The translations under genes and the position numbers were made by a program. This document shows, in pieces, positions 10,842-58,359 of a stretch of 64,000 nucleotides of DNA. The notes under the pieces are model-generated. The model did not search any database and had not been told where the DNA came from. It saw only the letters and a list, made by a program, of their open reading frames with translations. Numbering within the stretch: position 1 is the stretch's first letter; every line of letters starts with the position of its first letter. Source of the stretch: Paramylibacter ulvae (GTDB taxonomy: Bacteria > Pseudomonadota > Alphaproteobacteria > Rhodobacterales > Rhodobacteraceae). Location of the stretch: NCBI RefSeq assembly GCF_014652655.1, contig NZ_BMZF01000008.1:62001-126000 (forward strand), read 5' to 3'.

Positions 10842-10852
10842 TGGGATGTCCT

Positions 10853-12661: not shown

Positions 12662-12690
12662 TTTGGGTCCTTATTCCTTTGTTTCTCGGA

Positions 12691-20779: not shown

Positions 20780-20919
20780 AATAGCCTCCCAAAGCTTACG
20801 GATGATCCGTGTAGGGTTAAAACTAAAGTGTTGTTTAAATCTTTAGGCAAACAAAAAATTGATATTTATTATTTTCGTTATTTTTCAATATCTTGGTATA
20901 TATGATTTTGGTAAATTTC

Positions 20920-20947
20920 AAAAATGTGCGAACAACCGCACATTTTT
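20920..20947. promoter_or_regulatory. Long inverted repeat between dctP and dctB
   Basis: AAAAATGTGCG and CGCACATTTTT form a perfect 11-bp inverted repeat with an AACAAC spacer. It lies 140 bp upstream of dctP and about 66 bp upstream of the preferred dctB start. It could be the DctD binding site, or a hairpin terminator with T-runs on both strands. Confidence 0.5.
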
Positions 20948-21013
20948 AATATCTGTTTGAAACCGTTTGTCATATGGTTGGAACATATAAATTTAGCGAG
21001 ATTCGCCCCGCCA

Positions 21014-22759
21014 ATGTTCCACATTTTGCATCGAAAATATTTAATACTCTATGCGGTGCTGGCCGTGGCGATTGTGTTGGCAACATTTTGGTTTGAAACG
21101 CGCAGCGGGCTTAACCAATTGGCAAAAACGGGTGGGGTGCGGTTGGAACAATCACGGGATCGATTATTGGGACAACTGACCAGTTTTCGCCAGCTTCCAA
21201 ATGTATTGGCACGTCATCCACAAATTATTGCCACTGTGAAAACCCGCGCAAACCTGCCAGAGGCGCGTTCGTTTTTGTTAAACACCAGCCTGTCCACGGG
21301 GGTGGAGGACATTTATCTGTTGGATGATACAGGCCAGATTATAATCACGTCAAACATCACCGAGCCAGATCATTATGATACGGCCATGTTTCATAACCGC
21401 GCCGATATACGTGCCGCGTTTAATGGTCGGCTTGGGTTTTTTCATGCGATTGATCCGATTGATCAATCCCGCGATTTCTTTTTCGCGCGGCGCATTGATT
21501 TTGATGGTGTTTATGGGCGCGGTGTGGTTGTGGTGCAGGTGGATATCGCCAGCTTGGAATTTGACTGGCAGATCGACGAAGATGTAATTGCATTCTTTGA
21601 TGAAAACGAGGTCGCATTTGTGACCAATCGACAAAACGTATCAATGCGACGATTGTCACCTGTAACGTCTCCGCTCTTGCGTGCGGAATACTACCCGCAA
21701 TCGGCAACACGGCCGTTTTTTGATTATTCGGTGCGTCAAAAATTTGGACATGATTTGTGGTGGTTTGATGATGATAGCGGATCTGCATCAGAAAAATTGA
21801 TGGTGTCACGTTTTGTGCCCCAAATTGATCTTACCTTGCGAGTGTTCATGAAAACCCAAAACACCAAGGCCGCGGCGTTGTTACAAACACAACTGGTTGC
21901 CGCCATGTTGGCGATGATCGGGTTGGGCTTTTGGGCATTATCCCAACGCCGCAAACGGCTGGCGGATCGTTTGGCAATCGAAGAGGCTGCAAATGCTCGA
22001 TTGGAGGCACGCGTTGAGGATCGCACAAAACAATTGCGCGAAACCCAAGCGCAGTTGATCCAAGCGGGTAAGCTCACAGCACTTGGCCAGATGTCCGCAA
22101 GTATCAGCCACGAGTTGAACCAACCAATGGCGGCCATTCAAAATTTTGCGCAAAACGGAACCAAACTTTTGAAAATGGATCGCGCCACGGATGCTGCACA
22201 AAACTTTGATCATATCAAAGGACAGGTTGATCGGATGAGCCGCATTATCAAAAGCTTGCGTGCATTTGCGCGCAAAGAAAAGGAAACCATCGCACCCGTC
22301 GATGTCCAATCTGTGATCCGTGACACCGTGGATTTGTTGTCGCAACGTTGTGACGATGAAAATGTCACGCTGCATTTTCAATCGTACCCATCGCCGATCA
22401 TGGTGATGGGGGGGCATGTGCGTTTGCAACAGGTGTTTATTAACCTGCTGAACAACGCATTTGATGCGGTGCTTGATCAATCTGACAAACAGGTGTGGAT
22501 CACGATTAATACCTTACCTGAAATTGTCCAAATTATCGTTGCGGATTCTGGCAAAGGTTTTGCTGATGAAACGCGCGTGTTTGAACCGTTTTATTCCACC
22601 AAAGATGTCGGCGCGAGCAAGGGAATGGGGCTGGGTTTGTCGATATCATATGGCATCATTGGAAGCTTTGGTGGCGAGCTAACCTGTCAAAATGGGGCGA
22701 ATGGTGGTGCAGAATTTTGTGTAAAATTGAAAAGCGCAGCGCAAGGATCAACACCATGA
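21014..22759 (+). CDS. dctB: C4-dicarboxylate sensor histidine kinase
   Basis: DctB-type kinase of about 581 residues: N-terminal membrane segment (YLILYAVLAVAIVLATFWF), a periplasmic double-PAS sensor region (GVEDIYLLDDTGQIIITSN), a second membrane helix, and a cytoplasmic coiled coil. The H-box is SASISHELNQPMAAIQNFAQN; N, G1 and G2 boxes are INLLNNAFDAV, DSGKGF and GMGLGLSISYGI. The upstream ATG at 20924 overlaps the 11-bp inverted repeat and has no ribosome site, so the ATG at 21014 is preferred, also without a clear one. It overlaps dctD by four bases. Confidence 0.88.
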   Translation: MFHILHRKYLILYAVLAVAIVLATFWFETRSGLNQLAKTGGVRLEQSRDRLLGQLTSFRQLPNVLARHPQIIATVKTRANLPEARSFLLNTSLSTGVEDIYLLDDTGQIIITSNITEPDHYDTAMFHNRADIRAAFNGRLGFFHAIDPIDQSRDFFFARRIDFDGVYGRGVVVVQVDIASLEFDWQIDEDVIAFFDENEVAFVTNRQNVSMRRLSPVTSPLLRAEYYPQSATRPFFDYSVRQKFGHDLWWFDDDSGSASEKLMVSRFVPQIDLTLRVFMKTQNTKAAALLQTQLVAAMLAMIGLGFWALSQRRKRLADRLAIEEAANARLEARVEDRTKQLRETQAQLIQAGKLTALGQMSASISHELNQPMAAIQNFAQNGTKLLKMDRATDAAQNFDHIKGQVDRMSRIIKSLRAFARKEKETIAPVDVQSVIRDTVDLLSQRCDDENVTLHFQSYPSPIMVMGGHVRLQQVFINLLNNAFDAVLDQSDKQVWITINTLPEIVQIIVADSGKGFADETRVFEPFYSTKDVGASKGMGLGLSISYGIIGSFGGELTCQNGANGGAEFCVKLKSAAQGSTP

Positions 22760-23991
22760 AGCCCCAAGTGATATTGATCGAAGACGATGATGCCTTGCGC
22801 ATGTCGCTGGCGCAAACGCTGGATATCGAAGGGATCACGGTTATTCAGGCCGATGGTTTGGCCCAGGCAAAACGTGCAATTCGTGCAAATTTTGCGGGTG
22901 TGATTTTGTCCGATATTCGAATGCCTCATTATGACGGGTTTGATGTGTTGGCGCATGTCAAAGACACCGATCCAGATTTGCCCGTGGTGTTATTGACGGG
23001 CGAGGCTGACGTGCCCATGGCGCTGCGCGCGATGAAAGAGGGTGCATATGATTTCTTGGAAAAACCCTGTGCCACAGAAACTTTGTTAAAGGTTTTGTAT
23101 CGTGCAATTTCGCATCGCAGTTTGATCACACAAACGCGCAGCTTGGAACAAAAAATCCGCCACAGCGACGCGGCATCGGTTCATTTTCCAGGGAAAACAC
23201 CTGCGTCAAGGAACCTGCGATCCAACCTGCGCCGCGTAGCCCCCCTACCCGTTCATGTGCATCTATACGGGCCGCGCGGGGTTGGCAAAAAGCTGGCGGC
23301 CTATACCATTCATAATCTTTCGCAAGACAGAGACGTCAATCTGGCAATCAATCTGCAAGATGCCCAAGCGGACGAAATCGCAACACTGAACGTGCCCGAT
23401 GCTCCTTGTGATTTGTCACTGAAAAATGTCGAATTGGCCAGTCCTGCACAACAGGCAGATTTGCTTGCATTGATCCATGCACATCCCAATTTGCGTGTGA
23501 TTTTATCCAGTATCCATTCAATGGACTATCTGATGAAACGTGGGTTTAGCGAAGATCTATTTTCTGCCTTGAATCTGGTTGAAATCAACGTTCCCACCTT
23601 GAAACGGCGCCGCGATGATTTGCCAGTGTTGTTTGAGGGTTTTGCCCGCCACACGGCGCGCGCATTAAACACCGACATGCCCCAAGTTCCCCAAAGCGTA
23701 TATGCAAATGTGATGGCAAAGGAATGGAATGGTAATTTGCCGGAATTACGTAATTATGCCCGCACGATTGTGCTGGGATTAAGTGTTCGCAAACACACGC
23801 CTCAGGAATTGACACTTGCCCAACAAATGGATGCGTTTGAAAAATTGGTGCTGTCTGAAACGCTAAAACGTAACAAAGGCAAGGCGGTTGATACCGCCAA
23901 ATCGTTGGGACTACCCCGCAAAACGTTTTACGATCGCTTGGCGCGTTACGATTTGCGGCCAAAAGATTTCAAACAAACGGATCCACAATAG
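22756..23991 (+). CDS. dctD: DctD-like response regulator lacking the sigma-54 contact motif
   Basis: The 411-residue regulator has an N-terminal receiver domain (LIEDDDAL, phospho-acceptor Asp in ILSDIRMPHYDGF, Lys in FLEKPC), a central AAA+-like domain and a C-terminal Fis-type helix-turn-helix (NKGKAVDTAKSLGLPRKTFYDRLARY). Walker A is altered to GPRGVGKK, and no GAFTGA loop is found where sigma-54 activators have it. It therefore probably acts with sigma-70, or as a repressor. The start is set by the ATGA overlap with dctB and AAGGA upstream. It likely controls dctPQM. Confidence 0.87.
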   Translation: MKPQVILIEDDDALRMSLAQTLDIEGITVIQADGLAQAKRAIRANFAGVILSDIRMPHYDGFDVLAHVKDTDPDLPVVLLTGEADVPMALRAMKEGAYDFLEKPCATETLLKVLYRAISHRSLITQTRSLEQKIRHSDAASVHFPGKTPASRNLRSNLRRVAPLPVHVHLYGPRGVGKKLAAYTIHNLSQDRDVNLAINLQDAQADEIATLNVPDAPCDLSLKNVELASPAQQADLLALIHAHPNLRVILSSIHSMDYLMKRGFSEDLFSALNLVEINVPTLKRRRDDLPVLFEGFARHTARALNTDMPQVPQSVYANVMAKEWNGNLPELRNYARTIVLGLSVRKHTPQELTLAQQMDAFEKLVLSETLKRNKGKAVDTAKSLGLPRKTFYDRLARYDLRPKDFKQTDPQ

Positions 23992-24051: not shown

Positions 24052-24960
24052 ATGCATCAATACGTTTTTTCTGGCTTACGGGTGTCCTCTGAATTTAAGT
24101 TCACGATCGCTGATTGCGAACCATTTGATGGTTCGCCAGATGTTACAATTCGTTTTGTCCAATATCTGGAAAAACCATTACATCCGATTTTTGCCGATGA
24201 AATCGTGACGGCCGCGCCAAATGATGTCTGGTTTTGTGCATCAGGCGACTTGGCTTATCGCGTAAAAGATGGGAGCGAGATTTTGATCCAACGGGGCGAA
24301 AACGTGCCCGATGCTGATGTGAATTTATATCTGGTAGGTACGGGTTTTGGGGTATTGTGCTTGCAACGTGATCTGATCCCATTTCATTGCTCTGCGGTGG
24401 AATACAATGGTCACGCGGTGGCGTTCAGCGGTGAATCTGGCGTTGGGAAATCAACGCTTGCGGCGGCGTTGTCACAACTTGGTTATGGGCACGTATGCGA
24501 TGATGTGTGCATCGCAAATTCCGCGCAAACACCGATGCGTGTTCAACCGATGCCAAAGGGATTAAAGCTTTGGGATGATGCGGCGGCACAGCTTAATATT
24601 GCACAGGGTGCGCGTGTGTCCGCCGACCTAGATTTTCACAAATCCTATGTCAACGTGGATCGCGCGGATCAAACGGGTGGATTGATGTTCAATCGCATCT
24701 ATATTTTGGACAATGATATTGCGCCCGAATTTTCAATTCATGAATTGAAAGGTGCGGAAAAACACGCCGAGTTGCGCCGCGCAATTTATCGCGAAGAATG
24801 GCTTCATTTTTTGCAAGAACCGCGCAAAACATTTGATCTGGTCTCAACCCTTGCGAGCAAGGTAGCGGTGTTTGCATTCAAACGTCCCGATGATTTGTCG
24901 CGTATCAAAGAAAGCGCAAAATTTCTGGCGCTGCATTTTGATGATGGGGATGCTGAATGA
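24052..24960 (+). CDS. HPr-kinase-like protein, putative lasso-peptide tailoring kinase
   Basis: The 302-residue protein has an HprK-type P-loop AFSGESGVGKSTLAAAL (loop residues 127-135) and the paired aspartates CDDVCIA (150-151) that act in phosphotransfer in HPr kinases. It lacks the N-terminal domain of bifunctional HprK/P, and no HPr or PTS gene is nearby. Homologous kinases in paeninodin-type lasso clusters phosphorylate the C-terminal serine of the precursor. The precursor here also ends in Ser. It overlaps the ATP-grasp gene by four bases. Substrate assignment is inference. Confidence 0.8.
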   Translation: MHQYVFSGLRVSSEFKFTIADCEPFDGSPDVTIRFVQYLEKPLHPIFADEIVTAAPNDVWFCASGDLAYRVKDGSEILIQRGENVPDADVNLYLVGTGFGVLCLQRDLIPFHCSAVEYNGHAVAFSGESGVGKSTLAAALSQLGYGHVCDDVCIANSAQTPMRVQPMPKGLKLWDDAAAQLNIAQGARVSADLDFHKSYVNVDRADQTGGLMFNRIYILDNDIAPEFSIHELKGAEKHAELRRAIYREEWLHFLQEPRKTFDLVSTLASKVAVFAFKRPDDLSRIKESAKFLALHFDDGDAE

Positions 24961-26186
24961 ACCGATCACGGGTTCAAAAACGCTGGCGACAATTGCGCAA
25001 AAAACTGGTGCAAAACCACCCCGATGGATTGATTGATTTTTCAAGAGTATTGCGCTGGTCAGCGAGCGAAAAATTTTATCCCCACGTCGAGATTTCGCAG
25101 ATGTTTCGGGCACGATTTTCAATGATCACTACCTTTGCAATGTGGGTTTTACAGATTTGGTATGGCCTGCGTTGGGTGTTATTTGATGCATGGTTCAGCA
25201 TTTTTCGCGCGATAAATGATTATGCAGATCATAGCGACATGGCGCGATCTGCACAATTTTGGCGTTTGGTGAAATATACATTCAGTTACGCGATCCCCGC
25301 GTCGGATTTGTATGAAAATGGCCTGATGACGCCTAACGCACCCGTGTTGGATTATGTATTTAGCACCGAAACCCAAGGATATCATTTGCAGCAAAATCGC
25401 AATCATTTTGATGCGCAAAGTGCCCGTGATTTACTTGCAGATAAATCGCGATTTGGCGATGAGATGGGCAAAATGGGCGTTCCCGTACCCAATACAATGT
25501 CTGTTGAACAAGCGACGCAACAAACCTTGGCAAATATGTTCCCCGCTCAAATAGATCGCATTTTTGTAAAACTGCGCAGCGCTAACGCAGGTTTTGCCGC
25601 GTTCAGTGCAACGAAAACTGCAAACGGTTTAACAGGGCAGAATTATCGGGGTGCTCCTTTGCTCCGGGCCGAGGATGTGGAACTGGCGTGGAAACACATT
25701 TTATCATTTGGTGATGTGATTATTCAGCCATTCATTTCAAATCATGCAACCCTTGCGTCACTGTCCAATACCAACACCGCTGTCACGCTGCGCCTTGTGA
25801 CTAAGTTTAATGTTAATTCCCCCCTGCCCGTTGCCGCACGGCTGGAAATCCCCGTTTGGGATTTGGAACTTGATGGCCAAATTAGCTATGTATTGTTCCC
25901 GATCAACTTGAAAACGGGTGCGTTGGAACCATCACCTAAACGTGGAATATATGGCCATGCCTTTGATACATTGATTGATGATATTTTCGCAAAATGTCCG
26001 CCGATCGTACCGTGTTGGGATGAAATTGCATCCTATTCGATACGTGCCCATCATCGCAAATTCGATCTCTATGCCATCGCGTGGGATTGGGTTATCACCG
26101 ACGATGGCCCGTTGTTATTAGAGGGCAACTCTGGGTTTGGGTTGGATACTCAACAAATGCAAAACGGTGGGTTATTGGCAGATTAA
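24957..26186 (+). CDS. Sugar-transfer-associated ATP-grasp domain protein
   Basis: The 409-residue protein resembles the ATP-grasp family linked to sugar transfer and polysaccharide loci. The core begins near residue 150 (LLADKSRFGDEMGKMGVPVPNTM), with the ATP-binding Lys in RIFVKLRSANAGFAAF. Metal-binding acidic residues lie in LLLEGNSGFGLD near the C-terminus. A hydrophobic stretch sits at about 57-85. Such enzymes usually join a carboxylate to an amine or hydroxyl. Coupled to the kinase gene, it may modify the lasso peptide or a glycan; no direct evidence distinguishes these. Confidence 0.75.
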   Translation: MNRSRVQKRWRQLRKKLVQNHPDGLIDFSRVLRWSASEKFYPHVEISQMFRARFSMITTFAMWVLQIWYGLRWVLFDAWFSIFRAINDYADHSDMARSAQFWRLVKYTFSYAIPASDLYENGLMTPNAPVLDYVFSTETQGYHLQQNRNHFDAQSARDLLADKSRFGDEMGKMGVPVPNTMSVEQATQQTLANMFPAQIDRIFVKLRSANAGFAAFSATKTANGLTGQNYRGAPLLRAEDVELAWKHILSFGDVIIQPFISNHATLASLSNTNTAVTLRLVTKFNVNSPLPVAARLEIPVWDLELDGQISYVLFPINLKTGALEPSPKRGIYGHAFDTLIDDIFAKCPPIVPCWDEIASYSIRAHHRKFDLYAIAWDWVITDDGPLLLEGNSGFGLDTQQMQNGGLLAD

Positions 26187-28060
26187 TCCTGATGGCACCA
26201 AAGATTTAGACTGTACAGGTTATGCACCCGTTCCCAATAAAATGTATCCTCTTCGTCAACCTCACCATTCATGCGTTTACTTGCGGCATCGATTTGTTGG
26301 GACAGGCGTTTAACATTTACCAATTTCACCAGATCAGGGTGCAAATCATCCAATAATTCACGCGCCATTTCATTGTAACACTGTGTTTTTGCATTGCGAA
26401 TATCACGGGTCATGATGGGTTTTCCCATATGTTTGGAATTTTGCCAAACAATGGAAGCGGGTAAAATATCATCGACCGCGCGGCGATGCAGATAACGCCA
26501 AACGCGTTTTGGCCCCACCTTTTCAATGCTGGGTGTGCGCAAATAGTTTTCAACGATCCTTACATCCCAAAGAGGCCAGCGATATTCAATCCCATAGGCA
26601 TTTCCAAAAAGTGTATGGTCATGCATCCGTGCATCAATAAAAGGTTGGGTTAATGTGCCATTCACAATCTCGCTGTTGATTGAATGATGGTTCAACACAT
26701 CAAACCATTCCGCCCGTTGTGTGGCTTCTAAATCGTATTGATCAACGATATCTTGATCGAGCAAATGAGTATCTATTTCATATTGCGCATCCGCCTCGAT
26801 ATTCGTTTGCTGATTTTTGTCGCGCCCATTGAGTAATATTTGCGCGATAAAACGAAACGGCTTTTTCAAAAAATGCCCCGGAATGAATTGCCATAATCCG
26901 CGATAATCGCGCCGTTGAATATATTCGACACTGATAAGCTCGCCATAGTTGGTGGCAACCTCGTCCCCTCCAAATCCAGTGAACATGGTTTTAATATTGT
27001 ATTTTTGCGCGGCGGTTGCGAGCAAAGACAATGAAATTTCGCAGCCATAACATGCGGGAAACCCAAGCACGGCTAAATCCTGTGTGATGGTTTCAATTGG
27101 ATCATCGTTTGTGGGCGATTCCATATGGGCGTTTTTGATACCCACCAATGCGTTCATGTCTTGAATGCATTGTTCTTCGCGACTGGCGGATATTCTGCTG
27201 AAACTGATCATTCCGTCGGGAACGGGTTTGGTCATCTGTTTTGCCAACAGCGCGATAATACTGGTTGAATCCAACCCGCCGCTGTTTTCAACGCCCATCG
27301 GATGGGTGTTGTCGATGCGGCTGGCGATTGCGGCCTCTAATGCATTGCGATGTGCTGTGACATTTTTTGGATCGCGTTGTGTGACCACCGTGGTCGCTTC
27401 ATCCCAATCACTCAGGTCTATTTTTGCGATTGTTTTATCGGCATTAATGACAACAACATGCCCAGGTGCCACTTTGATAACTGTTTCAAAGGCGGTTTTT
27501 TCGTGATGCATTGGGGCGAACGGGCTTAGGATAAATTTGGCCATCCATTCGTGGCTGCGTTGCAATTGAAATGGCACCAGTTTGCGCAGGGTTGGAATAC
27601 TGTTGGCAAAACAAATGCCATCATCATGGGGCGCGTAATAAATTGGTTTTGCACCAAATATATCTCTTGCAAAGATCAGATGATTTTCGCGCGGATCATA
27701 AATGGCGATGGCAAAATCGCCTTGAAAATTTTCCGCAAATTTTACGCCCCATTTTTGATAGGCCGCTAAAACAATCGCAGCATTATGTGGGTTCGCTTTG
27801 ATGGCAAGTTTTTGTAACACCGTATCGCGATTATCAATGCGCCCCCAAAAACAAACAACGATGCCGGTGGTGGAACACACAAATGGCAAGGTTTCGCGCC
27901 CATCGGGCAGATGGGTTTGTTCAACCACGAAACCATTTGTAAATTGGGTGATCCCAGAATTGGCAGGGTCTGCAAATGGCGACAACGTTGCGATGATTGC
28001 GTCAAGGTTTGATAAATCTTGTGCCACTGGTGTGTGAAATGAAATGTGACCAGCGAACAT
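26183..28060 (-). CDS. Asparagine-synthetase-like lasso peptide cyclase (C protein)
   Basis: The 625-residue protein has an N-terminal class II amidotransferase-like domain starting MFAG, so the nucleophilic Cys2 of true asparagine synthetases is missing. The C-terminal synthetase domain has the ATP-pyrophosphatase loop SGGLDS at 260-265. Lasso cyclases use this domain to adenylate an Asp/Glu side chain and close the macrolactam with the core N-terminus. AAGGA sits six bases before the ATG. It follows the precursor gene, with a terminator hairpin between, and is convergent with the ATP-grasp gene. Confidence 0.85.
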   Translation of the reverse strand: MFAGHISFHTPVAQDLSNLDAIIATLSPFADPANSGITQFTNGFVVEQTHLPDGRETLPFVCSTTGIVVCFWGRIDNRDTVLQKLAIKANPHNAAIVLAAYQKWGVKFAENFQGDFAIAIYDPRENHLIFARDIFGAKPIYYAPHDDGICFANSIPTLRKLVPFQLQRSHEWMAKFILSPFAPMHHEKTAFETVIKVAPGHVVVINADKTIAKIDLSDWDEATTVVTQRDPKNVTAHRNALEAAIASRIDNTHPMGVENSGGLDSTSIIALLAKQMTKPVPDGMISFSRISASREEQCIQDMNALVGIKNAHMESPTNDDPIETITQDLAVLGFPACYGCEISLSLLATAAQKYNIKTMFTGFGGDEVATNYGELISVEYIQRRDYRGLWQFIPGHFLKKPFRFIAQILLNGRDKNQQTNIEADAQYEIDTHLLDQDIVDQYDLEATQRAEWFDVLNHHSINSEIVNGTLTQPFIDARMHDHTLFGNAYGIEYRWPLWDVRIVENYLRTPSIEKVGPKRVWRYLHRRAVDDILPASIVWQNSKHMGKPIMTRDIRNAKTQCYNEMARELLDDLHPDLVKLVNVKRLSQQIDAASKRMNGEVDEEDTFYWERVHNLYSLNLWCHQD

Positions 28061-28098
28061 TGTTATTCCTTTGACAAGCCTTCAAAACCAAACACCAC

Positions 28099-28127
28099 AA
28101 ACAAAAACAGAGCCATGATGGCTCTGT
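28099..28127 (-). terminator. Intrinsic terminator between the precursor and cyclase genes
   Basis: On the minus strand ACAGAGCC and GGCTCTGT form a perfect 8-bp stem (plus-strand 28107-28114 and 28120-28127) with a 5-nt loop, followed by TTTTTG. It lies 26 bp after the precursor stop. Partial read-through would give excess precursor over cyclase, a common arrangement in peptide clusters. Confidence 0.8.
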
Positions 28128-28153
28128 CAATTCATTCACAGTGGAATGTGATA

Positions 28154-28273
28154 TTAGCTGGCAATCGCATTGTTTTGCATGCCCATGTTTTCCATCATCG
28201 CGCTACCTTTGTCTTGCGCCGTTTTCTGCGCTGACAGGTTGGTCAAAACGGGTTTTGTATATGTTGTCTTCAT
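28154..28273 (-). CDS. Lasso-peptide-type precursor (A peptide)
   Basis: A 39-residue peptide starts at 28273 with GGAGA nine bases upstream. The leader contains YTKP at residues 5-8 followed by VL, matching the YxxP-x-L motif recognised by PqqD-like B1 proteins, and T18, a candidate for the conserved Thr at -2. If cleavage follows A19, the core is 20 residues from Q20 to S39, with E28 at core position 9, the right place for ring closure. Gln at position 1 is unusual. It ends in Ser, the residue phosphorylated in paeninodin. The frame can be read longer upstream, but only this start has a ribosome site. Confidence 0.75.
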   Translation of the reverse strand: MKTTYTKPVLTNLSAQKTAQDKGSAMMENMGMQNNAIAS

Positions 28274-28294
28274 TGTAATTCTCCAATACATGCG

Positions 28295-28308
28295 ACGCGG
28301 TATCGCGT
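28295..28308 (-). promoter_or_regulatory. GC-rich hairpin in the precursor 5' UTR
   Basis: ACGCG and CGCGT pair across a 4-nt loop, 22 bases upstream of the precursor start codon and just before its ribosome site. It may stabilise the leader mRNA. The role is not established. Confidence 0.35.
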
Positions 28309-28334
28309 AATAATTTATTAAAATTTGGTTAAAG

Positions 28335-28363
28335 ATATATGGGGTACAATGGTTCATTGTCAA
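28335..28363 (-). promoter_or_regulatory. Predicted strong promoter of the lasso precursor
   Basis: On the minus strand a consensus -35 TTGACA (complement of 28358-28363) is followed after 17 bp by ATATAT (complement of 28335-28340); TATATC one base later is an alternative. Transcription would begin about 50 bases upstream of the precursor ATG. It is among the best sigma-70 matches seen in the window. Confidence 0.6.
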
Positions 28364-28527
28364 CATGCCAAGCCGCCAAACAAGCGCTATCCCGCGCTTT
28401 CAACCACAGGTAGAACCGTTATTTTTAAGGCGTTTTGCGAATTGACGAGGCGATCACAGTTTAATAGTCGAACCTGATAGTATAGCGTGAAGCAAAGACA
28501 TTTAATTTGAATAACGGATTAAGGGTA

Positions 28528-28809
28528 ATGACGATTGAAAACAAACGATTTTTCCGCAATCAAGACATCCTCGCAACCACAATGGATGGCGAGGTCGTGA
28601 TGATGAGCGTTGATGATGGAACTTATTATAGCCTCTCAAGCGGTGTTGGGGCGATGGTATGGGAATTGTTGGAAACGCCCAAATCAATTGGCGAACTGGT
28701 TGCAGGAATACAACAGGAGTTCGAAGTCAGCACCAAAGAGTGCGAATCAGACGTGCGCGACCTGTTGAAATCGCTGCAAAAACAAAAACTCGTGGACCAA
28801 GAGGCATAG
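28528..28809 (+). CDS. PqqD-like leader-peptide recognition protein (B1)
   Basis: The 93-residue protein has the PqqD/RRE fold: a beta-strand block (ATTMDGEVVMMSVDDGTYYSLSSGVGAMVWELL) followed by helices (SIGELVAGIQQEFEVSTKECESDVRDLLKSLQKQ). Such proteins bind the leader of the precursor and present it to the protease and cyclase. The ATG at 28528 is preferred over a TTG seven codons earlier, with AAGGG very close upstream. It diverges from the precursor and is two bases from B2. Confidence 0.85.
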   Translation: MTIENKRFFRNQDILATTMDGEVVMMSVDDGTYYSLSSGVGAMVWELLETPKSIGELVAGIQQEFEVSTKECESDVRDLLKSLQKQKLVDQEA

Positions 28810-28811
28810 CC

Positions 28812-29306
28812 GTGAAACCCCTTCGAAATGCAGCGCGAAAATTGCGGTCTGTGTTTCGGCTGACACCATTCGTGGTGATCTGGTTTCCGTTTTCATGGAT
28901 CATGATGGGGCTGTGTCGGTTGGCAATTATTACGGTTACATTTCGCAGCCTCTCGCGGTTTTTCGGAGCGTTGCATGGCGTTGAACCTGTGGTTCCAATG
29001 TTAAACAAAAAACAGAAACATCGCGCATTTCAAATTGCCAAATTGATATCCATCACCGCGCGAAATACCCCGTGGGAATCCAATTGTTTCCCACAAGCCT
29101 TGGTCGCGCGAATTATGCTGGGAATTTACCGTATTCCATATGCGCTTTATTTTGGGGTGAAACGTGATGGCACATCGCGCGAATTATTGGCGCATGCTTG
29201 GGTTTGTTCGGGGATATGCGCGGTATCTGGGGGTGATGATTCATTTGATGAATACACGGTTGTGGGATGTTATGGCGCACAATCTTGGCACGCGGTGACG
29301 CCATGA
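28812..29306 (+). CDS. Transglutaminase-like lasso leader peptidase (B2)
   Basis: The 164-residue protein starts at a GTG two bases after B1, with AAGAGG upstream. After a hydrophobic segment (residues about 17-45) it has the lasso B2 cysteine-protease pattern: NCFPQALVARIML with candidate nucleophile Cys92, and LLAHAWVCSG with His128, then an acidic cluster DDSFDEY. It should cleave the leader while B1 holds it. The ATGA overlap with the ABC gene indicates coupled translation. Confidence 0.82.
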   Translation: MKPLRNAARKLRSVFRLTPFVVIWFPFSWIMMGLCRLAIITVTFRSLSRFFGALHGVEPVVPMLNKKQKHRAFQIAKLISITARNTPWESNCFPQALVARIMLGIYRIPYALYFGVKRDGTSRELLAHAWVCSGICAVSGGDDSFDEYTVVGCYGAQSWHAVTP

Positions 29307-31066
29307 AACAAATGCGCGAATTTCTTCAATTGATCTGGCGTCATTCACGCGCGAAAACGGTTTTGTTATTCGCGCTCAATCTGATGTCCAGCGTGACCGA
29401 GGGCATCGGGCTTCTCCTGTTGGTTCCGCTTTTGGCGCATCTACAAACCGACCAACCTATATTGGGTGGGGTGTCGCGCTGGATTGAAAAACTTGGTTTG
29501 CCGCAATCATTATCTGGTTTGCTGGGTTTGTTTTTCGCATTGGTCGTTTTGCGCAGTGTGATCAGTTATGCACGCACGATGGTGTGGCAGGATTTCCAAT
29601 TGAACCTCATCGATACCATTCGTGTAAACAGCTTTAACGCCCTACTCCATGCCAATTGGAATTGGATTTCGAATTTGAAAAAGTCCGATCATTCGAATTT
29701 TTTGATAAACGAAGTTGATCGCATTGACGACGGCGTCACCTATACGATGGATTTTTGCACTGGGTTGGCGGCGGTGCTGGCCTATATTGTTGTTGCGGCG
29801 AGCCTGTCATTTCAGATGGCCATTGTTGCCCTGTTGGTCGGCGCAAGCGTGATGTTTTTCATGCGTGCCCAGCACCGCCGTGCACGCGATCTGGGCGAAA
29901 ACTTGGGTGATGCCTACGAGGATATGCAACAGGTCGTCGAAGAAGGGTTATCCAGTATCAAATTAACCAAGATTTTGGGGAACGAAGATCGCCACCGCAA
30001 TATGATGGCAGATATTTTGGCACGCCTGCGCACGCAACAACTCGCCTTTTCCAAAACCAATGCGGCCGCGGGTGCGGTTTTTCAAATTGTCATCGCGCTC
30101 GTGCTGGTTGGGTTTTTGTGGGTTGGGGTGAAAATATTGGAACTCCCGTTGCCCAACCTGTTGATCTTGGTGTTGATCTTGGCGCGGCTTGCGCCAATGT
30201 TGCGCAGCATGCAAAATCAATTGAACCAGATCTTGCACGCATGGCCTGCCTTGCGAAATTTGGATGAAATCACGCAAATGGCAGCAACGCACCGTGATGT
30301 TTTGCCAGAAACAATTCAAAAAATTGATTTACAAGATTGCATCACGCTCAACGGTGTTGGGTTTACTTACCAATCGCGAAAATCAGCGTCACTCAATGAC
30401 ATCACGCTGCAGTTTCCTGCGCGAAAAACCACCGCTATCATTGGTGCGTCGGGTGCGGGTAAATCAACACTTGCGGATATTTTGATGGGATTATTGGCAC
30501 CTGATCACGGGGAAATGCGAGTGGACGGGGAATTGATCACAGACCAACATCGCGTAAACTGGCGCCATTCACTCGCCTATGTCCCACAAGAGGTATTCTT
30601 GTTCCACGACACCATTCGCAACAATTTGCTATGGGCGAACGTGGGGGCAGATGACGCCGCCCTGAAACAGGCCTTGCAACGTTCAGCGGCGCAATTTGTG
30701 TTTGATCTTGATGATGGATTGGATACGGTTGTGGGGGATGCAGGGCTACGTCTTTCGGGTGGTGAACGCCAGCGTATCGCACTTGCGCGGGCCATGTTGC
30801 AAAACCCATCTGTGTTGATCTTGGACGAAGCCACAAGTGCCTTGGACACCAAAAACGAAATGCTAATCCGCCAATCGTTGGATCAAATTCATGGCGATAT
30901 GACGGTGATTGTCATTGGGCATCGTTTGCCCACCTTGGAAAACGCAGATCAGGTGGTCGTGCTACATGATGGGCAGGTAAATGCGGTGGGCACTTGGGCC
31001 GCACTGTCACAAAATCCCGATGCTCAAATTCCAAATGAATTCAAAAGGGACGATGCGAAAAAATGA
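29303..31066 (+). CDS. ABC transporter, fused permease/ATPase (lasso exporter, D)
   Basis: The 587-residue half-transporter has about six N-terminal membrane helices and a C-terminal ATPase with Walker A GASGAGKST, signature LSGGERQRIALARAML, Walker B SVLILDEATSALD and switch His in IVIGHRLPTLE. It would function as a homodimer exporting the mature peptide and providing immunity, as McjD does. The start is the ATG inside the B2 stop overlap. It overlaps the methyltransferase by four bases. Confidence 0.87.
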   Translation: MKQMREFLQLIWRHSRAKTVLLFALNLMSSVTEGIGLLLLVPLLAHLQTDQPILGGVSRWIEKLGLPQSLSGLLGLFFALVVLRSVISYARTMVWQDFQLNLIDTIRVNSFNALLHANWNWISNLKKSDHSNFLINEVDRIDDGVTYTMDFCTGLAAVLAYIVVAASLSFQMAIVALLVGASVMFFMRAQHRRARDLGENLGDAYEDMQQVVEEGLSSIKLTKILGNEDRHRNMMADILARLRTQQLAFSKTNAAAGAVFQIVIALVLVGFLWVGVKILELPLPNLLILVLILARLAPMLRSMQNQLNQILHAWPALRNLDEITQMAATHRDVLPETIQKIDLQDCITLNGVGFTYQSRKSASLNDITLQFPARKTTAIIGASGAGKSTLADILMGLLAPDHGEMRVDGELITDQHRVNWRHSLAYVPQEVFLFHDTIRNNLLWANVGADDAALKQALQRSAAQFVFDLDDGLDTVVGDAGLRLSGGERQRIALARAMLQNPSVLILDEATSALDTKNEMLIRQSLDQIHGDMTVIVIGHRLPTLENADQVVVLHDGQVNAVGTWAALSQNPDAQIPNEFKRDDAKK

Positions 31067-32466
31067 TCGAAAATTCCCAAGGCTATTTTACCAGCGACAT
31101 TTATGTCCCAACATTTAGCGCCAGCGTTGATCCGCGCCTGATTTCATCCAAGGCACGGTTTTTTGGATATGAATGCGCATCGAGCGTGGCACCCTTTACA
31201 TATGGCGATTTTGGCTGTGGTTTGGGCACAGATATCATCATGTTGGCCTATGCCCTGCCCCATGGACAGTTTTTTGGGTTTGATATGAATGGTGATCATA
31301 TCAAGGTGGCGCGCCAATTGGCCAACGAATTGGGTTTAACCAATATCACATTTATCAACAAACCGTTCGATCAGATTACTGGTGATGACGTCCCCCCCCT
31401 TGATTTCGCGATTTCGCGCGGGGTGATTAGCTGGATATCCCACAGCGTTCGCGGCGAATTGATCGCTGCGATTTCGCGTTGTTTGTGTGATACGGGCATC
31501 GTTTCAATTGAATATCAAACCAAGCCAGGCGCGTTACAAGAAACTGGATTTCGCAAAGTTTTGGGCGAAATGTTGGCACGTGGTGATAGCCCAAAAACCG
31601 CATTTCACTTGATATCAGAAAACTTTAAAGACGCACCGCATTATGATCCAAGCGAGGATAACAAAAACCAAGACCGTTTGCGTTATCTCTGTCATGAATT
31701 TGTATCGGCGCATTGGACCCCCGTTTATCCATCAGAAATGGCCGATGATTTTGGCAAGATGGGTATGGGGCTTTGCGGTCCGTTTGAGGGGCAGCAAGTT
31801 TTAATCAACAAATTGCAATCCTCAAATGCGCATCGCGATCATTTATTCATAGAGGATTTTGTCACCTGCCGTGATGGCACAGGTGGGCGTACAGATCTGT
31901 TTTCAAAAATGGCGGCCAAGGTGAATGCCCCGCGTCCATCCATTGACCAAGAAGTCGGTATTTTTCGCCTCCCCTTTCCGATCTCCATCGGTGAAAAGAA
32001 TAAATCGCGCATCGCACAAAATGCGTTTTCACCAAGCTTGGCCAGCAAACCATTGAATCGTCTGCTTCCTGCGGGATTGGACGGCGATGCCAAGGGGCTG
32101 TTTTTCATGGCCTTTAACAAGTCGGGAAATTTGCTGACCAGTACGAATGTCGCGCCAATCACTTGCGATGGGGAATTTCGCGTGATCCATCCAAGCGTGA
32201 AACGACAATTTACATTGGATGAAAATATCGCGTGGCATAAATGCGCGATTGTGGTTCCGGAAACCGCTTTGTTATTAATCGCGCCGCGTTCAATTTACGC
32301 AATCCTGTCGCATTTTGATGGAGTGCCCCAAACCGAATGGCCGGATCGATTGAAAAAACTGATCCCAAAATTAAAGAAAAAGAAGGCCAAGCGTATCGTC
32401 AAAATTTGGCGAGAACACTGGGCGCCTGTGCTGGCTGCACATGGTGTGATTGCACCGCTGGATTAA
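31063..32466 (+). CDS. SAM-dependent methyltransferase with C-terminal regulatory-type domain
   Basis: The 467-residue protein has a Rossmann methyltransferase with motif I GDFGCGLGTD (48-57) and FFGFDMNGDH, then a long C-terminal half resembling the regulatory domain of rickettsial-type protein lysine methyltransferases. It ends in a lysine-rich segment KKLIPKLKKKKAKRIVKIWREHW. Being the fourth gene of the coupled B1-B2-D operon, it may methylate the lasso product or a protein partner. The target is unknown. Its stop overlaps the convergent phosphatase stop. Confidence 0.75.
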   Translation: MIENSQGYFTSDIYVPTFSASVDPRLISSKARFFGYECASSVAPFTYGDFGCGLGTDIIMLAYALPHGQFFGFDMNGDHIKVARQLANELGLTNITFINKPFDQITGDDVPPLDFAISRGVISWISHSVRGELIAAISRCLCDTGIVSIEYQTKPGALQETGFRKVLGEMLARGDSPKTAFHLISENFKDAPHYDPSEDNKNQDRLRYLCHEFVSAHWTPVYPSEMADDFGKMGMGLCGPFEGQQVLINKLQSSNAHRDHLFIEDFVTCRDGTGGRTDLFSKMAAKVNAPRPSIDQEVGIFRLPFPISIGEKNKSRIAQNAFSPSLASKPLNRLLPAGLDGDAKGLFFMAFNKSGNLLTSTNVAPITCDGEFRVIHPSVKRQFTLDENIAWHKCAIVVPETALLLIAPRSIYAILSHFDGVPQTEWPDRLKKLIPKLKKKKAKRIVKIWREHWAPVLAAHGVIAPLD

Positions 32467-33218
32467 TATTTGACGCTGAAAAACTGTGCCTGATCATCAC
32501 GGATTAAAACGGCGGTTAACGTGCCTGTGGCATAGGCACCCGTATCAATGCCGATCCGCCCGTTTTCGATTTTTGGGTCGTTCAAGATCGTATGACCATA
32601 AATAAACCATTGCCCATCGCGGCGGGTTTTTTGATGAAACTCGTCCAGCCCCCACAATAAAATCCGTGCGTTTTGATCATCTGGCGCGCGATTGGGATCG
32701 GCGGCGGCATGAACAACATGAACATTGCCAGAATGGTGAATTGTAGGCAGATCACGTATCCAGCTTTCTTGGCCAGCGGGCATGGCCGATGCCAACTTAT
32801 CGCGTGCGGCTAACAATTCTTGTTCAGATGCGCGCTCGCTTATGCCGCGAATGCCAAAACTTTCCATTGTTTGCAGCCCTCCGAACGTTAACCATCGCGG
32901 CCCACGTTCGGTGGGGCGGTCCAAAAAATCGAGCATCATTTTTTCATGATTACCCATCAAACATATCGCACCATTTTGGCATTCGCTTTGCACAATATCC
33001 AAAACGGCGGCGCTGTTGGGGCCACGATCCACCAGGTCACCAACGAAAATAAGCTGGGCATCGTCAGGGCGCTTGGCCAACAGTTGGTTCAACAATACAT
33101 CACATCCATGCACATCACCGATCACGAACAAGGGTTCATCAGATTGGATAGCCGCATCAAACGCAGGCTGAACGCTGGGCGCCGATTTTTGCCCGAAAAG
33201 TTTTTTCAAGAATGACAT
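32463..33218 (-). CDS. Metallophosphoesterase, serine/threonine phosphatase or ApaH-like
   Basis: The 251-residue protein carries calcineurin-type metal motifs: VIGDVHGC (D-x-H), FVGDLVDRGPNS, LMGNHEKM, and a late YGHTIL with IGIDTGAY. Members dephosphorylate phosphoproteins or diadenosine polyphosphates. It lies 18 bp downstream of the Wzc-like kinase in one operon. A role in reversing phosphorylation linked to polysaccharide assembly is possible, although calcineurin-type enzymes usually act on Ser/Thr. Confidence 0.85.
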   Translation of the reverse strand: MSFLKKLFGQKSAPSVQPAFDAAIQSDEPLFVIGDVHGCDVLLNQLLAKRPDDAQLIFVGDLVDRGPNSAAVLDIVQSECQNGAICLMGNHEKMMLDFLDRPTERGPRWLTFGGLQTMESFGIRGISERASEQELLAARDKLASAMPAGQESWIRDLPTIHHSGNVHVVHAAADPNRAPDDQNARILLWGLDEFHQKTRRDGQWFIYGHTILNDPKIENGRIGIDTGAYATGTLTAVLIRDDQAQFFSVKY

Positions 33219-33236: not shown

Positions 33237-35408
33237 TTAATTGGAATGATATGAATCGCCATATCCATATGCGTAACCATATCCGCCAGCATATCCATAT
33301 TGCCGGATTTTTTTCAAATCCAACATGGTCATAACCAAACCGTCCACTTCCAACCCCACGCTGCCAAACATGGACAGGCCAGTTTTCACCTCGGTCTTGG
33401 ACGTTTTGTCCCAACGTACAGAATAAATAATTGAATCTGCATGTTGGCCGATCACACGTGCATCTGGCACGGCTAAAACGGGTGGTGTATCGATGATGAT
33501 ATAGTCGTATTCGTCGCGCAGCATTTTCAACAGATCAATGAACTTTTGCGACGAAAAAATATCGGCAGCGTTGGCGGTGGATCGTTCCCCCAACAAAATA
33601 TCAACGCCCATGCCTTCGGGGCGAATAACCGCGTCTTGTAACGTTGCCTCGCCCGTCATCACAGCGATAAACCCAACGGATTTTTCGATGTCAAAATATT
33701 CCGCGAATACGCGTTTGCGAATATCGCCTTCTAACACCAACACGCGTTTGCCAAGCCCGGCCATATTTTGAGCAAGTGTCAGCGAAACTGTTGTTTTACC
33801 CTCTGCAGGTGTGGAGGATGTGGTCATGATCACTTGCGGTGGGTTGTCGATGTCAGACAACAAAATCGAGGTTCGCAAATTGCGCACCGCTTCGGCAAAA
33901 TTCGATGTTGGGTTTGTCGCGGCGTAGTTTAATACCTTGCGCCGAGTATTTGCCTTGATCTGTGGTAATGTTCCAAGCACGTTATGGGCGGTAAAGCTTT
34001 CCAAAACTTCTGGTGAACGGAATGTGTTGTTCATCAGTTCGCGCAACAACATTGCACCAACGCCAGCCAAGCCGCCAAGGATCAGTGCCATCATCATGAT
34101 CGAGGCTTTGCGCGGGGCAGATGCGCGTTGGGGTGTTGCTGGTGACAACAAGCGCGCTGTTGGGGACAACAATCCTTGTTGAACCGTGATCTCTTTGAGA
34201 CGTGATAAAAAGCTTTCGTAAAGCAGGCTGTTGGCCTCTGCCTCGCGGCGCAATTGCTGTAATTGCACTAAATCATCAGATTGTTCTTCGACTTGCAATT
34301 TGAATGTGTTTTCGGAATTGGACAGCGCACTCATTTGCTGTGTCAGCCGCGCCATATCGGTTTTCGCCTGCGCCATGACTTGATCAAGGCGGGTTTGGAA
34401 GGCATCGGGCGTAACCTGATTATTGCTGATCATATCAGCCAAGCGGGTTAGGCGTGAATCGCCCGCAACATCTGCGATGGAGGTGTAATCGTTGGAACCT
34501 GCCAGCAATTCGATGCTTTGAACCTTGGCGCGTGTTGCGTCATGTGTTTCTTGCAAATCTGTGATCCGCTGACGCATATCCTTTAATTGTCGGGTCAAAA
34601 GCGCGAGGTTTTCAGGGCTTACAAATTGTGTGCCATCGTTGAATTCTTTGATCCGCACCTCTGATGATTCAAGCTCTACTTTTAATTCAGCGGCTTTTTG
34701 GCTTAACCATTTGCTGGCTTTTTCGGTGACTTCGAATTTTTCATCAACGGCATCTTGGATATAGATATCGGCCAAGGCATTGGCCATGCGCACGGATTCA
34801 GCAGGATTATCCGTGTCCGCGCCGATTTCAAAAATATAGGTTTCGGAAATGTTGGACACACGAAACACATCAAGTGCATTGTCGATGACTTTGTTTAGAA
34901 CTTCGGCTTCGCTAATGGGTTCATCATCACCGCCTTCTTCGTCATCGTTAGAAACAAAGATTGATCGGATCATACCGCGGATATTAATTTGCGGTAGCCA
35001 TGATTCATCTGGTTCCATTTCGGCCAATTCCTCGGCCAGATACGAATTGTAATTTGGATCTTCCAGAAGGTTTAATTTAGCAACCAGTTTGGCAATCATA
35101 TTGCGCGATTGGATAACTTCCATTTCGGTATTGATCTGGCTTTCATCGCCCCACCCACCAGACAAAATACTGTCTGCAACCACGCTTTGAATATCAACAA
35201 TGTTTTCTTGTGATGTTTCCATCTTGAGCGTGGCGGTTGCGGGATAGATCGGTTCGGCCACACGAAACGCGTACCAGCCGCCTATGAAAAATCCGATTGT
35301 CGCAGCCAATCCAATCCAAAATTTGCCGCGCCAGAGCACTGAAAAAATCGCAAAAAGATCAATTTCATCGTCTTGCGATGCATCAGGAATATTTACTGCT
35401 CTTTGCAT
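33237..35408 (-). CDS. Polysaccharide co-polymerase with tyrosine autokinase domain (Wzc-like)
   Basis: The 723-residue protein has an N-terminal Wzz domain between two membrane helices (about residues 30-50 and 430-455), a long periplasmic coiled-coil region, and a BY-kinase domain. The kinase has Walker A' SSTPAEGKTTVSLTLAQNMA, Walker A'' VLVLEGDIRKR and Walker B IIIDTPPVL. The C-terminal tail is a tyrosine cluster (about eight Tyr in 20 residues), the autophosphorylation site typical of Wzc. It controls chain length and export of exopolysaccharide. No low-molecular-weight Tyr phosphatase (Wzb) is seen nearby. Confidence 0.93.
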   Translation of the reverse strand: MQRAVNIPDASQDDEIDLFAIFSVLWRGKFWIGLAATIGFFIGGWYAFRVAEPIYPATATLKMETSQENIVDIQSVVADSILSGGWGDESQINTEMEVIQSRNMIAKLVAKLNLLEDPNYNSYLAEELAEMEPDESWLPQINIRGMIRSIFVSNDDEEGGDDEPISEAEVLNKVIDNALDVFRVSNISETYIFEIGADTDNPAESVRMANALADIYIQDAVDEKFEVTEKASKWLSQKAAELKVELESSEVRIKEFNDGTQFVSPENLALLTRQLKDMRQRITDLQETHDATRAKVQSIELLAGSNDYTSIADVAGDSRLTRLADMISNNQVTPDAFQTRLDQVMAQAKTDMARLTQQMSALSNSENTFKLQVEEQSDDLVQLQQLRREAEANSLLYESFLSRLKEITVQQGLLSPTARLLSPATPQRASAPRKASIMMMALILGGLAGVGAMLLRELMNNTFRSPEVLESFTAHNVLGTLPQIKANTRRKVLNYAATNPTSNFAEAVRNLRTSILLSDIDNPPQVIMTTSSTPAEGKTTVSLTLAQNMAGLGKRVLVLEGDIRKRVFAEYFDIEKSVGFIAVMTGEATLQDAVIRPEGMGVDILLGERSTANAADIFSSQKFIDLLKMLRDEYDYIIIDTPPVLAVPDARVIGQHADSIIYSVRWDKTSKTEVKTGLSMFGSVGLEVDGLVMTMLDLKKIRQYGYAGGYGYAYGYGDSYHSN

Positions 35409-35587
35409 AATTGATCGTCACTCTTCAATTTATCGCTTGGTGGGCGAATAATACTTGGGGTCATTAATAAATAGCTATAGAACCTATCCATCGGCTTACT
35501 ATACATATTCAAACGATTTTAAAAGGTTTATGACACGCGTAGTACCGGAATTGGCGCGGTTAGCTTGGAAACATTAAACGGCGTAAA

Positions 35588-36727
35588 ATGAATAAATTTA
35601 ATTTACTTCTCCAGCTGGCACAGGTGTTAATCGAAGGGTATCGCCAACACCCAGATACTGCCACGCAACGCGCAGCACTTGATGTCATCATCGCACATTG
35701 GGATGATGTGTATGACCTTGCCATCCAAAATCGCGTGTGGACAAATTTGATTTCCGTTTTGGTCGAAAACCCATCGTTATTTGCCGCCCTGCCTGACATC
35801 CAAAAGCAAGACATCAAGCTCGCTTATTTCGACAACTGGGCGCAAAACAAACGCATTGTTATGCAAATCAAACAGATCGCGGATCGTTTTAACGCGCCTG
35901 CCAAACCCACACTTTTCATGATCAAAGGTGGGGTGCGATTGTTTGATGACCTGTACCCGACATTGGCGCATCGTTTTATGGCCGATATTGATCTTTATTT
36001 CGAAGATAACGCCGCAGTGTTGGAATTTGCCGCACTTGATTATTTTTCACCCGATGAACAGCGGTTTGATTTGGCGGCGAATGACGATGAATATTTGGCC
36101 ACGCATAAGGTGCGCAATCACCATCTGCCCCCTGTAATTTCACCATCACAGCCTGTGCATGTCGAACTGCATCAATCGTGGGTGCATCTGCGTGCGGTTC
36201 AATATTGTCGGGCGACAACGGCATTGGATGCGGTTGCGATCAACGGCTTGGATGCCATACGCACCCCCGCCCCCGTGGATCAGCTGATACTCAATATTTT
36301 GCATAGCCAATATGGTGATCTATATACCGATTACAGCAGCTTTCGGTTGCGCAATGTCCTGGAAGGTTATTTGTTATATCAACGTCTTAACTCCGTTGAT
36401 CGCGCCACGCTGGTTGCGCATTTTGAAAATATCGGTCGTAAGCGTGATTGGATTTTCTGGACATATCTGTGCCAAGTTTATTTCCAAGCACCAGAATTTC
36501 AAACGGCACCCCCAATGAGCGAGCGGGTGAAATATTTTTTCCATAGACAATTTAATCAAAGTGCCACGTATAACGCGCTGGTGTATTCTGGGCATTTCTT
36601 ATGGCGGTTCTTGCGCCACGGCATTTGGCGCAAAGAAGAACGCGCACGTTTGATGCGCAATTTGTTTGATGGCGAAAAACGTGGGCGTCTTATGTCCAAA
36701 TTGAAACGTTCGATTGGGTGGGAATAA
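35588..36727 (+). CDS. Nucleotidyltransferase-fold protein (PF14907-like)
   Basis: The 379-residue protein has the nucleotidyltransferase-like core FMIKGGVRLFDDLYPTLAHRFMADIDLYF, with the acidic pair D133/D135, then a helical C-terminus. It matches uncharacterised nucleotidyltransferases often encoded with lasso-peptide or polysaccharide genes. It diverges from wzc and abuts the convergent epimerase gene with no gap. It could be a displaced tailoring gene of the lasso cluster 3 kb away, or an EPS function. The activity is unknown. Confidence 0.72.
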   Translation: MNKFNLLLQLAQVLIEGYRQHPDTATQRAALDVIIAHWDDVYDLAIQNRVWTNLISVLVENPSLFAALPDIQKQDIKLAYFDNWAQNKRIVMQIKQIADRFNAPAKPTLFMIKGGVRLFDDLYPTLAHRFMADIDLYFEDNAAVLEFAALDYFSPDEQRFDLAANDDEYLATHKVRNHHLPPVISPSQPVHVELHQSWVHLRAVQYCRATTALDAVAINGLDAIRTPAPVDQLILNILHSQYGDLYTDYSSFRLRNVLEGYLLYQRLNSVDRATLVAHFENIGRKRDWIFWTYLCQVYFQAPEFQTAPPMSERVKYFFHRQFNQSATYNALVYSGHFLWRFLRHGIWRKEERARLMRNLFDGEKRGRLMSKLKRSIGWE

Positions 36728-38596: not shown

Positions 38597-38720
38597 ATGG
38601 TTTTAAACCACCTTCACAAAATTTAACCATCGTCGCCACGCGGTCTATGGTTAAAGAGTAACAAATTTATTCAATATTTAGTTAAAATTGAGACATTAAG
38701 AAAATTTAGGCGAACAAACG

Positions 38721-40055: not shown

Positions 40056-40329
40056 AACTGCGGTTCCCAACAAAATGCCTGTCACTAATTTTGCTTCTTC
40101 TACTGATTATCAAAAATTTTACAAGAAAATAACCCTGTGGAGCGACTTTGGGCAATGTCAGTCGTGTTTGATACCAATTCGTGTGGTATTTATAAATCGT
40201 TGGTGTGTTAAATGCTCGATAACCCGCTTTTTATGTATTGCTGGGGTGCCCCAAGATTGACTCTGAATCACAATTTGGCCTAAACAATAGAAAATTGATT
40301 GTAGTTACTAAATTATTCGGAGTTTCGAT

Positions 40330-57161: not shown

Positions 57162-57162
57162 A

Positions 57163-58170: not shown

Positions 58171-58223
58171 ACCGAGCATTAACAAAAACAAAAAACAGGA
58201 GCACGAATTCGACGAAACCAAAG

Positions 58224-58257: not shown

Positions 58258-58295
58258 CTATTCGGTGTTGTAGCATCTCCGACTTAGCGCAAATT

Positions 58296-58311: not shown

Positions 58312-58359
58312 TACTGTCGATTCCGACGGGCGAAAAAGTTTTGTCTCGTGAAAAAAAAT

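Follow-up and report, generated by a model that had tools for sequence, protein, structure and literature searches.

The window analysed here is a stretch of 64,000 nucleotides of the Paramylibacter ulvae genome (contig NZ_BMZF01000008.1, positions 62,001 to 126,000, forward strand), numbered below from its first letter. Its positions 24052–32466 hold what is, judged from sequence, probably an intact-looking gene cluster for a phosphorylated lasso peptide, lasso character and phosphate being taken together. A preliminary description had placed a lasso cluster here, and all eight of its genes were found: a kinase (K), an ATP-grasp ligase (G), a macrolactam cyclase (C), a precursor (A), a leader-binding protein (B1), a leader peptidase (B2), an exporter (D) and a methyltransferase (M). 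The lasso and phosphorylation part of the cluster is of an already known type; the new part is G, which is the most unusual gene of the cluster and has relatives in other lasso clusters. Sequence data establish which genes are present, the register of the precursor, the residues kept in the kinase and the repeated occurrence of G next to lasso genes. We tentatively propose a class of ATP-grasp lasso clusters in which a second ATP-driven amide may be formed at a core Lys, either as an acyl or aminoacyl decoration or as a second ring.

K (HprK-like peptide kinase, 302 amino acids; 24052–24960) and G (PF14397-type, 409 amino acids; 24957–26186) lie on the plus strand, as do B1 (PqqD-like recognition element for ribosomally synthesized and post-translationally modified peptides, RRE; 28507–28809, with a TTG start and an ATG seven codons further on), B2 (transglutaminase-like; 28812–29306, GTG start), D (MsbA-like ATP-binding cassette, ABC, exporter; 29303–31066, named from its family matches) and M (class I methyltransferase of the PKMT1/2 type, 467 amino acids; 31063–32466). 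On the minus strand, A (39 amino acids; 28154–28273) is followed by C (26183–28060). ATGA overlaps, read directly in the sequence, join K to G, B2 to D and D to M, which bears out the coupling described earlier, and the convergent genes G and C share 4 bases. B2 scores 66.8 bits on NF033537, where the curated cut-off is 33, and also matches PF13471; B1 falls slightly short of the cut-off of NF033536 (78.2 vs 80 bits), and its best matches in the PDB are lasso RREs (9x90 and TbiB1, 5v1u). An RRE and a leader peptidase are thus both present. The cyclase is asparagine-synthetase-like, lacks Cys2 and has an intact ATP loop (SGGLDS). G and M exceed the cut-offs of PF14397 (50.5 vs 31.4 bits) and PF13847 (44.9 vs 27 bits), respectively.

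The same cluster exists in Amylibacter kogurei 4G11, of the same genus, on a 108-kb scaffold (108159 bases) that is a candidate for a circular molecule. Gene order there matches the window from a response regulator upstream of K to a nucleotidyltransferase gene (NT) downstream of M, with 76.5–93.7% protein identity. The window precursor reads MKTTYTKPVLTNLSAQKTA (leader) and QDKGSAMMENMGMQNNAIAS (predicted core), and that of A. kogurei MKTPYTKPVLTNLSAQKTA and QDKGMAAKEMKGMRNVGIAS. The leader, residues 1–19, contains YTKP and has Thr18 at position -2; the predicted core has Lys3, the ring residue Glu9 and a C-terminal Ser20, so that a YxxP-type leader, Thr(-2) and an acidic residue at core positions 7–9 occur together. 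The two precursors are identical at 18/19 leader and 12/20 core positions (76.9% over A as a whole), with five synonymous codon differences in the leader. In both genomes GGAG stands directly 5' of the precursor ATG, and a terminator-like hairpin with a T tract (28096–28128, minus strand, between A and C) is identical in the two; such sites number 3 per 800 bases scanned, vs 1.2 in shuffled sequence. In 61 control loci, a loose precursor rule (Y/W/F-xxP, Thr at -2, Asp or Glu at core positions 7–9) gave 0.55 matches per 10 kb, three of 55 ending in Ser; matches to the register at the lasso loci exceed this background. We call the 39-residue precursor because of its orthologue, the GGAG, the shared hairpin and the rarity of this register in the controls; it has no Pfam family match, and its sole NCBIfam match is NF033528 (E 0.096). 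The hairpin would probably hold the precursor in excess over the cyclase.

The C-terminal Ser of the earlier description is present and is kept in A. kogurei; it also occurs in 28 of the 31 precursors found among lasso loci by a strict mechanical rule (Y/W-xxP-x-L/I/M/V, no more than 2.5 kb from C, B1, K or B2). K keeps His112, a GESGVGKS P-loop and Asp150-Asp151, and across 12 aligned K proteins, chosen from the lasso loci collected at that stage, R106, H112, G127, G132, K133, S134, T135, D150 and D151 are invariant. The lasso kinase motif is His-Lys-Asp-Asp (PMC9266682), and H112, K133, D150 and D151 supply it in all 12 rows, which agrees with the HprK-like peptide kinase proposed earlier. 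PadeK phosphorylates its linear precursor at the C-terminal Ser, and the same site serves PadeK, ThcoK and SyanK (PMC9266682); in the BsfK system Ser3 is phosphorylated and the leader has Ile(-2) (PMC10368454). Because the window precursor ends in Ser and lacks Ser3, the PadeK-like pattern applies to it, and because K retains the residues of lasso kinases, we favour the last Ser as the site of phosphorylation; it is quite likely that K would act there on the linear precursor. For the remaining steps, B1 would bind the YTKP leader, B2 would cut after Ala19, C would very probably join the Gln1 amine to Glu9, and D would export the product, a predicted tail-phosphorylated lasso peptide with at least one further modification.

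Two alignments show K163, K205, Q257, R279, E389 and N391 of G to be invariant. The structure model of G (predicted local distance difference test score, pLDDT, 79.5) finds mostly carboxylate-amine ligases as its best structural matches, among them RimK, ArgX/LysX and D-Ala ligases. The top Foldseek matches include 8ynq, 8ynd and 3wvr, the last of which we take to be the pheganomycin ligase, at 11–14% identity and template modelling (TM) values of about 0.3–0.4; these ATP-grasp peptide ligases resemble G in fold, and their substrates are unrelated or unknown. Against the graspetide ligase models of NCBIfam and Pfam, G gave no match at E 0.1, its matches being PF14397 and a weak one to STM4014; G is thus not an ATP-grasp of the graspetide ligase family as those models define it.

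A scan of 84,980 species genomes with the G alignment, ignoring neighbours, gave 68 loci, of which seven also contain C, K and B1: A. kogurei, Halochromatium, an alphaproteobacterial metagenome-assembled genome (MAG; our G329), Pseudomonas asturiensis, a plasmid of Hyphomicrobiales UR115 (G364), the MAG UBA7691 and Methylomonas fluvii. Since A. kogurei, G329 and G364 were query rows, four of the seven are new. The top six scores of the G profile all fall within these seven loci, three of the six being the profile's own rows. A search of 398 phylum genomes with the G of Halochromatium gave six matching genomes at 1e-20, two of which are those of the window and of A. kogurei, and in all six G stands beside lasso genes, one locus (L147) being cut by a contig end and showing only B1, B2 and D. 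When the profile was run against 20 genomes picked for holding lasso loci, nine matched; five were already known to have G, and in each of the remaining four the stretch fetched contains C, K and a G-like gene. The matches of these four span only about 240 of the 416 profile positions, those of the third set of loci, L163–L166, lying at about positions 151–394. Altogether, 16 distinct lasso loci with G are spread across proteobacteria, and K is present in 15 of them, the exception being the truncated L147 (duplicates were recognized: L069, L071 and L079 are L008, L054 and L046). One G query had the UR115 record as its sole plasmid match, two further G queries had none in the plasmid search, and the viral collection held no relative of G.

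In the cyclase tree, the association of G with lasso genes is spread over several distinct branches, and core Lys is found in every rule-found precursor there. On that tree the presence of G needs five changes (L105, an asparagine-synthetase-like match with no K or B1, was left off the second cyclase tree), and on the first G tree, of 68 rows, the eight lasso rows need two, a value as low as which none of 500 shuffles reached; therefore, G has been gained or lost more than once. These trees do not establish a single origin of G in lasso clusters; L163–L166, found later, are absent from the 68-row tree.

Precursors at loci with G differ from the others in the core. By the strict rule, a core Lys is present in 13/13 precursors at G loci vs 2/18 at lasso loci without G, and the ring position has Glu and no Asp in 12/13 vs 2/18; the C-terminal Ser shows no such difference (13/13 vs 15/18, Fisher 0.25). 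Here "without G" refers to the surroundings of the locus alone; G is present in another cluster in the genomes of L012, L055, L045, L051 and L052, and the stretches of L051 and L052 contain B1 only and that of L045 B1 and C only. No strict-rule precursor was found at L070, L146, L147 and L164 (with G) or at L048, L053, L056, L058 and L059 (without G), and these are uncounted; L070 passes the loose rule with the core GGKHRTPFELPDVSSYGPS and stands outside the 13, and L058, which gave a match in an earlier precursor survey, outside the 18. Both ideas, Lys and Glu, are post hoc, having been drawn from the precursors in which they were counted.

G would possibly couple a carboxylate, probably that of a small acid or an amino acid, to the amine of the core Lys, here Lys3; we favour the Lys side chain because it carries the only amine remaining after ring closure. 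Several observations weigh against this. Kin-independent pairs, with states set by hand and any core Lys counted, tail included, number about four for Lys, none against and one tied (median p 0.125), and for Glu three for, none against and two tied (p 0.25); the link of Lys with G is a trend, and independent pairs are too few for proof. In three G loci the Lys lies in the tail and not in the ring, and a stricter version, in which G implies a core Lys at positions 1–5, was rejected, holding in 10/13 precursors. L043 combines a core Lys with a ring Glu, and a search of its genome at 1e-10 found no G; the precursor of L060, whose genome also lacks G, likewise contains a core Lys. L072 (Sphingomonas arenae) has two G-like genes and no C, K or B1, with a G-profile score about that of the Halochromatium G.

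The RimK, ArgX/LysX and D-Ala ligases among the structural matches suggest another target: G may modify the C-terminus, for instance by RimK-like addition of an amino acid or amine to the terminal carboxylate, or else the phosphoserine. The Ser end of all 13 G precursors and the presence of K in 15/16 G loci fit such a role, which we nevertheless consider unlikely, as the Ser end is nearly as frequent without G and it is the core Lys, not the Ser, that singles out G. A further explanation looks to the minus-strand exopolysaccharide genes adjoining the cluster at 33237–40085 (a Wzc-like autokinase, Polysacc_synt_2 and a Wza-like gene), which are neighbours outside it. G, M and NT (PF14907; 35588–36727, plus strand, among these genes) would then serve the exopolysaccharide and be in lasso operons by chance. 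The name of PF14397 refers to sugar transfer, L163 has a Wzc match, and sugar or capsule genes were seen by eye near L090, L145 and L146. However, in L073 and L083 G adjoins C with no such genes seen by eye, in other loci G is beside C or D, and the window shows translational coupling of G with K and of M with D, which makes this account rather improbable. Still less probable is an intrapeptide bond made by G between Lys and Glu9 or the C-terminal carboxylate, giving a natural lasso-graspetide hybrid or a product with a second ring. Core Lys and ring Glu do both track G, in many G precursors the sole core carboxylates are the ring Glu and the C-terminus, and graspetide side-chain links are made by ATP-grasp enzymes (PMC13003496); yet G matches no graspetide ligase model, C itself needs Glu9, and the ring Glu partly tracks the kinship of C, as the pair counts given above reflect.

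As to the lasso reading itself, four points count against it. NF033535, the lasso cyclase model, is the best match of C, with a score far under its cut-off (195 vs 525); K has only weak HprK-type matches, all far under their cut-offs (best TIGR04352, E 3e-8, 33 vs 200 bits); Gln is unusual at core position 1 of lasso peptides; and the core tail, NMGMQNNAIAS, lacks a bulky aromatic plug. A linear phosphopeptide of the LPP kind, or an unthreaded ring, is improbable as the product even with such a tail and with LPP clusters sharing an RRE, an HprK-like kinase, a nucleoside triphosphate transferase and an MsbA-like exporter and often lying by capsule loci (PMC13381572), since the cyclase, with its intact SGGLDS loop, is of a type absent from the LPP set, the cluster proteins tested gave no SpI-type peptidase match, and the precursor retains Thr(-2) and Glu9.

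Beyond G and the genes for the predicted tail-phosphorylated lasso peptide, the cluster has M, in keeping with the earlier remark that it has more tailoring genes than usual. M alone (METHYLTRANSFERASE) matches PKMT1 and PKMT2 (5dnk and 5doo) only over its N-terminal S-adenosylmethionine part, and a profile of M with five homologues matches 5dnk (PKMT1) at 15–486 of 512 positions (E 9e-47), covering nearly all of it. PKMT1 and PKMT2 differ from M in host and substrate, being enzymes of Rickettsia that act on OmpB, and M is shorter. StspM is known for C-terminal O-methylation; from the profile match, Lys N-methylation by M would be at least as likely as that StspM-type reaction. It is possible, though less likely than not, that M methylates the peptide, perhaps on Lys too. 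M and G would compete for the one core Lys unless they act sequentially or M acts elsewhere. At 1e-25 M is found in 6/289 class genomes, the window's included. As a recurrent lasso gene M is not supported: a weak M-like open reading frame (ORF) was seen only in L043, truncated by the end of the locus, and among the lasso loci collected M is a neighbour in Amylibacter only, a check outside which lie the surroundings of the other M genomes; this, too, speaks against a role for M in the peptide.

Paeninodin-type clusters (pade, thco and syan) share with the window C, A, K, B1, B2, D, the C-terminal Ser and the kinase residues (PMC9266682, PMC5067487), and the window differs in adding G and M and in its alphaproteobacterial replicon. 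Paeninodin RREs favour WxxP and reportedly occur in Bacillota only (PMC13381572), whereas the leader motif here is YxxP, namely YTKP in both Amylibacter precursors, and WxxP is absent. The pseudomycoidin (psm) cluster likewise combines a kinase with a nearby gene annotated as a nucleotidyltransferase (PsmN), and NT has the same kind of annotation as this pseudomycoidin glycosylation gene; G and M go unmentioned in the accessible psm description, and the window NT lies 3.1 kb off, past a phosphoesterase gene and Wzc; its role on the peptide is a candidate one. NT is also beside the cluster in A. kogurei, and it is possibly part of the lasso cluster. The Bsf cluster of Bradymonas sediminis has a kinase, discrete B1 and B2, a cyclase, an ABC transporter, a nucleotidyltransferase and a Gram-negative host (PMC10368454); it has Ile(-2) and phospho-Ser3, in contrast to the Thr(-2), C-terminal Ser and lack of Ser3 in the window. 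Albusnodin has an acylated core Lys amine, the Lys being conserved among similar clusters (PMC9266682), and its enzyme is an acetyltransferase, whereas the window has an ATP-grasp ligase.

The literature searched, which mostly left out subscription papers and for this result included the accessible parts of PMC8498205, PMC13003496 and PMC8939145, contained no description of an ATP-grasp that tailors lasso peptides; nor did it yield a paper on PF14397 or its name. The term "ATP-grasp" is absent from the text of PMC9266682 and PMC13381572. Lasso-graspetide chimeras have been engineered, with modifications described as not seen in nature (PMC13003496, 2026), and clusters of the window type may be their natural counterpart. 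As scaffolds, lasso peptides are stable, and variants can be made with enzymes whose substrates are the linear precursors; an ATP-grasp acting on a lasso precursor, if true, would add to lasso tailoring an amide-forming step that was not found in the parts consulted of three lasso papers. The recurrence of G and the Lys pattern suggest a peptide decoration not yet described, and because of that pattern the function of G is open to direct test by one point mutant.

The RepABC replicon named in the preliminary description is corroborated by repA, repB and repC (55983–59592, plus strand), all above NCBIfam cut-offs and 23 kb from the lasso cluster on a contig of 131 kb. The cyclase is found in 2/295 family genomes at 1e-60, namely the window's and A. 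kogurei, and in 2/385 class genomes at 1e-40; NF033537 matches 3/33 genus genomes. A plasmid search with the cyclase gave seven records, all below 60% identity and none over 80% of the query. Lasso and linear phosphopeptide clusters lie beside capsule loci in Bacilli, with role unknown (PMC13381572), and the present cluster extends this link between phosphopeptides and capsules to an alphaproteobacterium. The gene at 32463–33218 (minus strand) encodes a calcineurin-like metallophosphoesterase and converges with M, the two sharing 4 bases; A. kogurei retains this gene (86%), whose product is a putative phosphatase for the phosphopeptide. At 19775–23991, directly upstream of K, genes encode a sensor kinase and a response regulator of the sigma54 type, which may or may not control the cluster; they stand behind a minus-strand gene whose product resembles, by eye, a tripartite ATP-independent periplasmic (TRAP)-type binding protein.

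In several G loci, ORFs that adjoin K and begin with S-Y/F-P-K/R-SGNTW were named sulfotransferase-like by eye (L046 10205–11044, L054 10437–11081, L073 12931–13782, L083 13026–13868, L090 12779–13627, L070 7280–8221, L165 5761–6597 and L145 1444–2457); none was seen by K in Amylibacter, read by eye with no family search. L145, a locus with two precursors, also has a 549-amino-acid ORF between two ATP-grasp genes (9342–13435). In a congener (genome G296), B2 and D stand alone in the same polysaccharide neighbourhood (L010, 8814–11005), flanked by Wzc and by an ORF that by eye resembles the Polysacc_synt_2 protein of the window; A, C, B1 and K were not seen in that 19-kb stretch. A second lasso locus of G296, L009, carries three copies of A together with B1, B2, C and K, and there the D profile matches only an ORF that looks like ABC-F by eye; the B2-D pair of L010 is either a remnant or the exporter for L009. 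Another alphaproteobacterial genome (G419) has 15 lasso-type PqqD matches, several of them near C and K.

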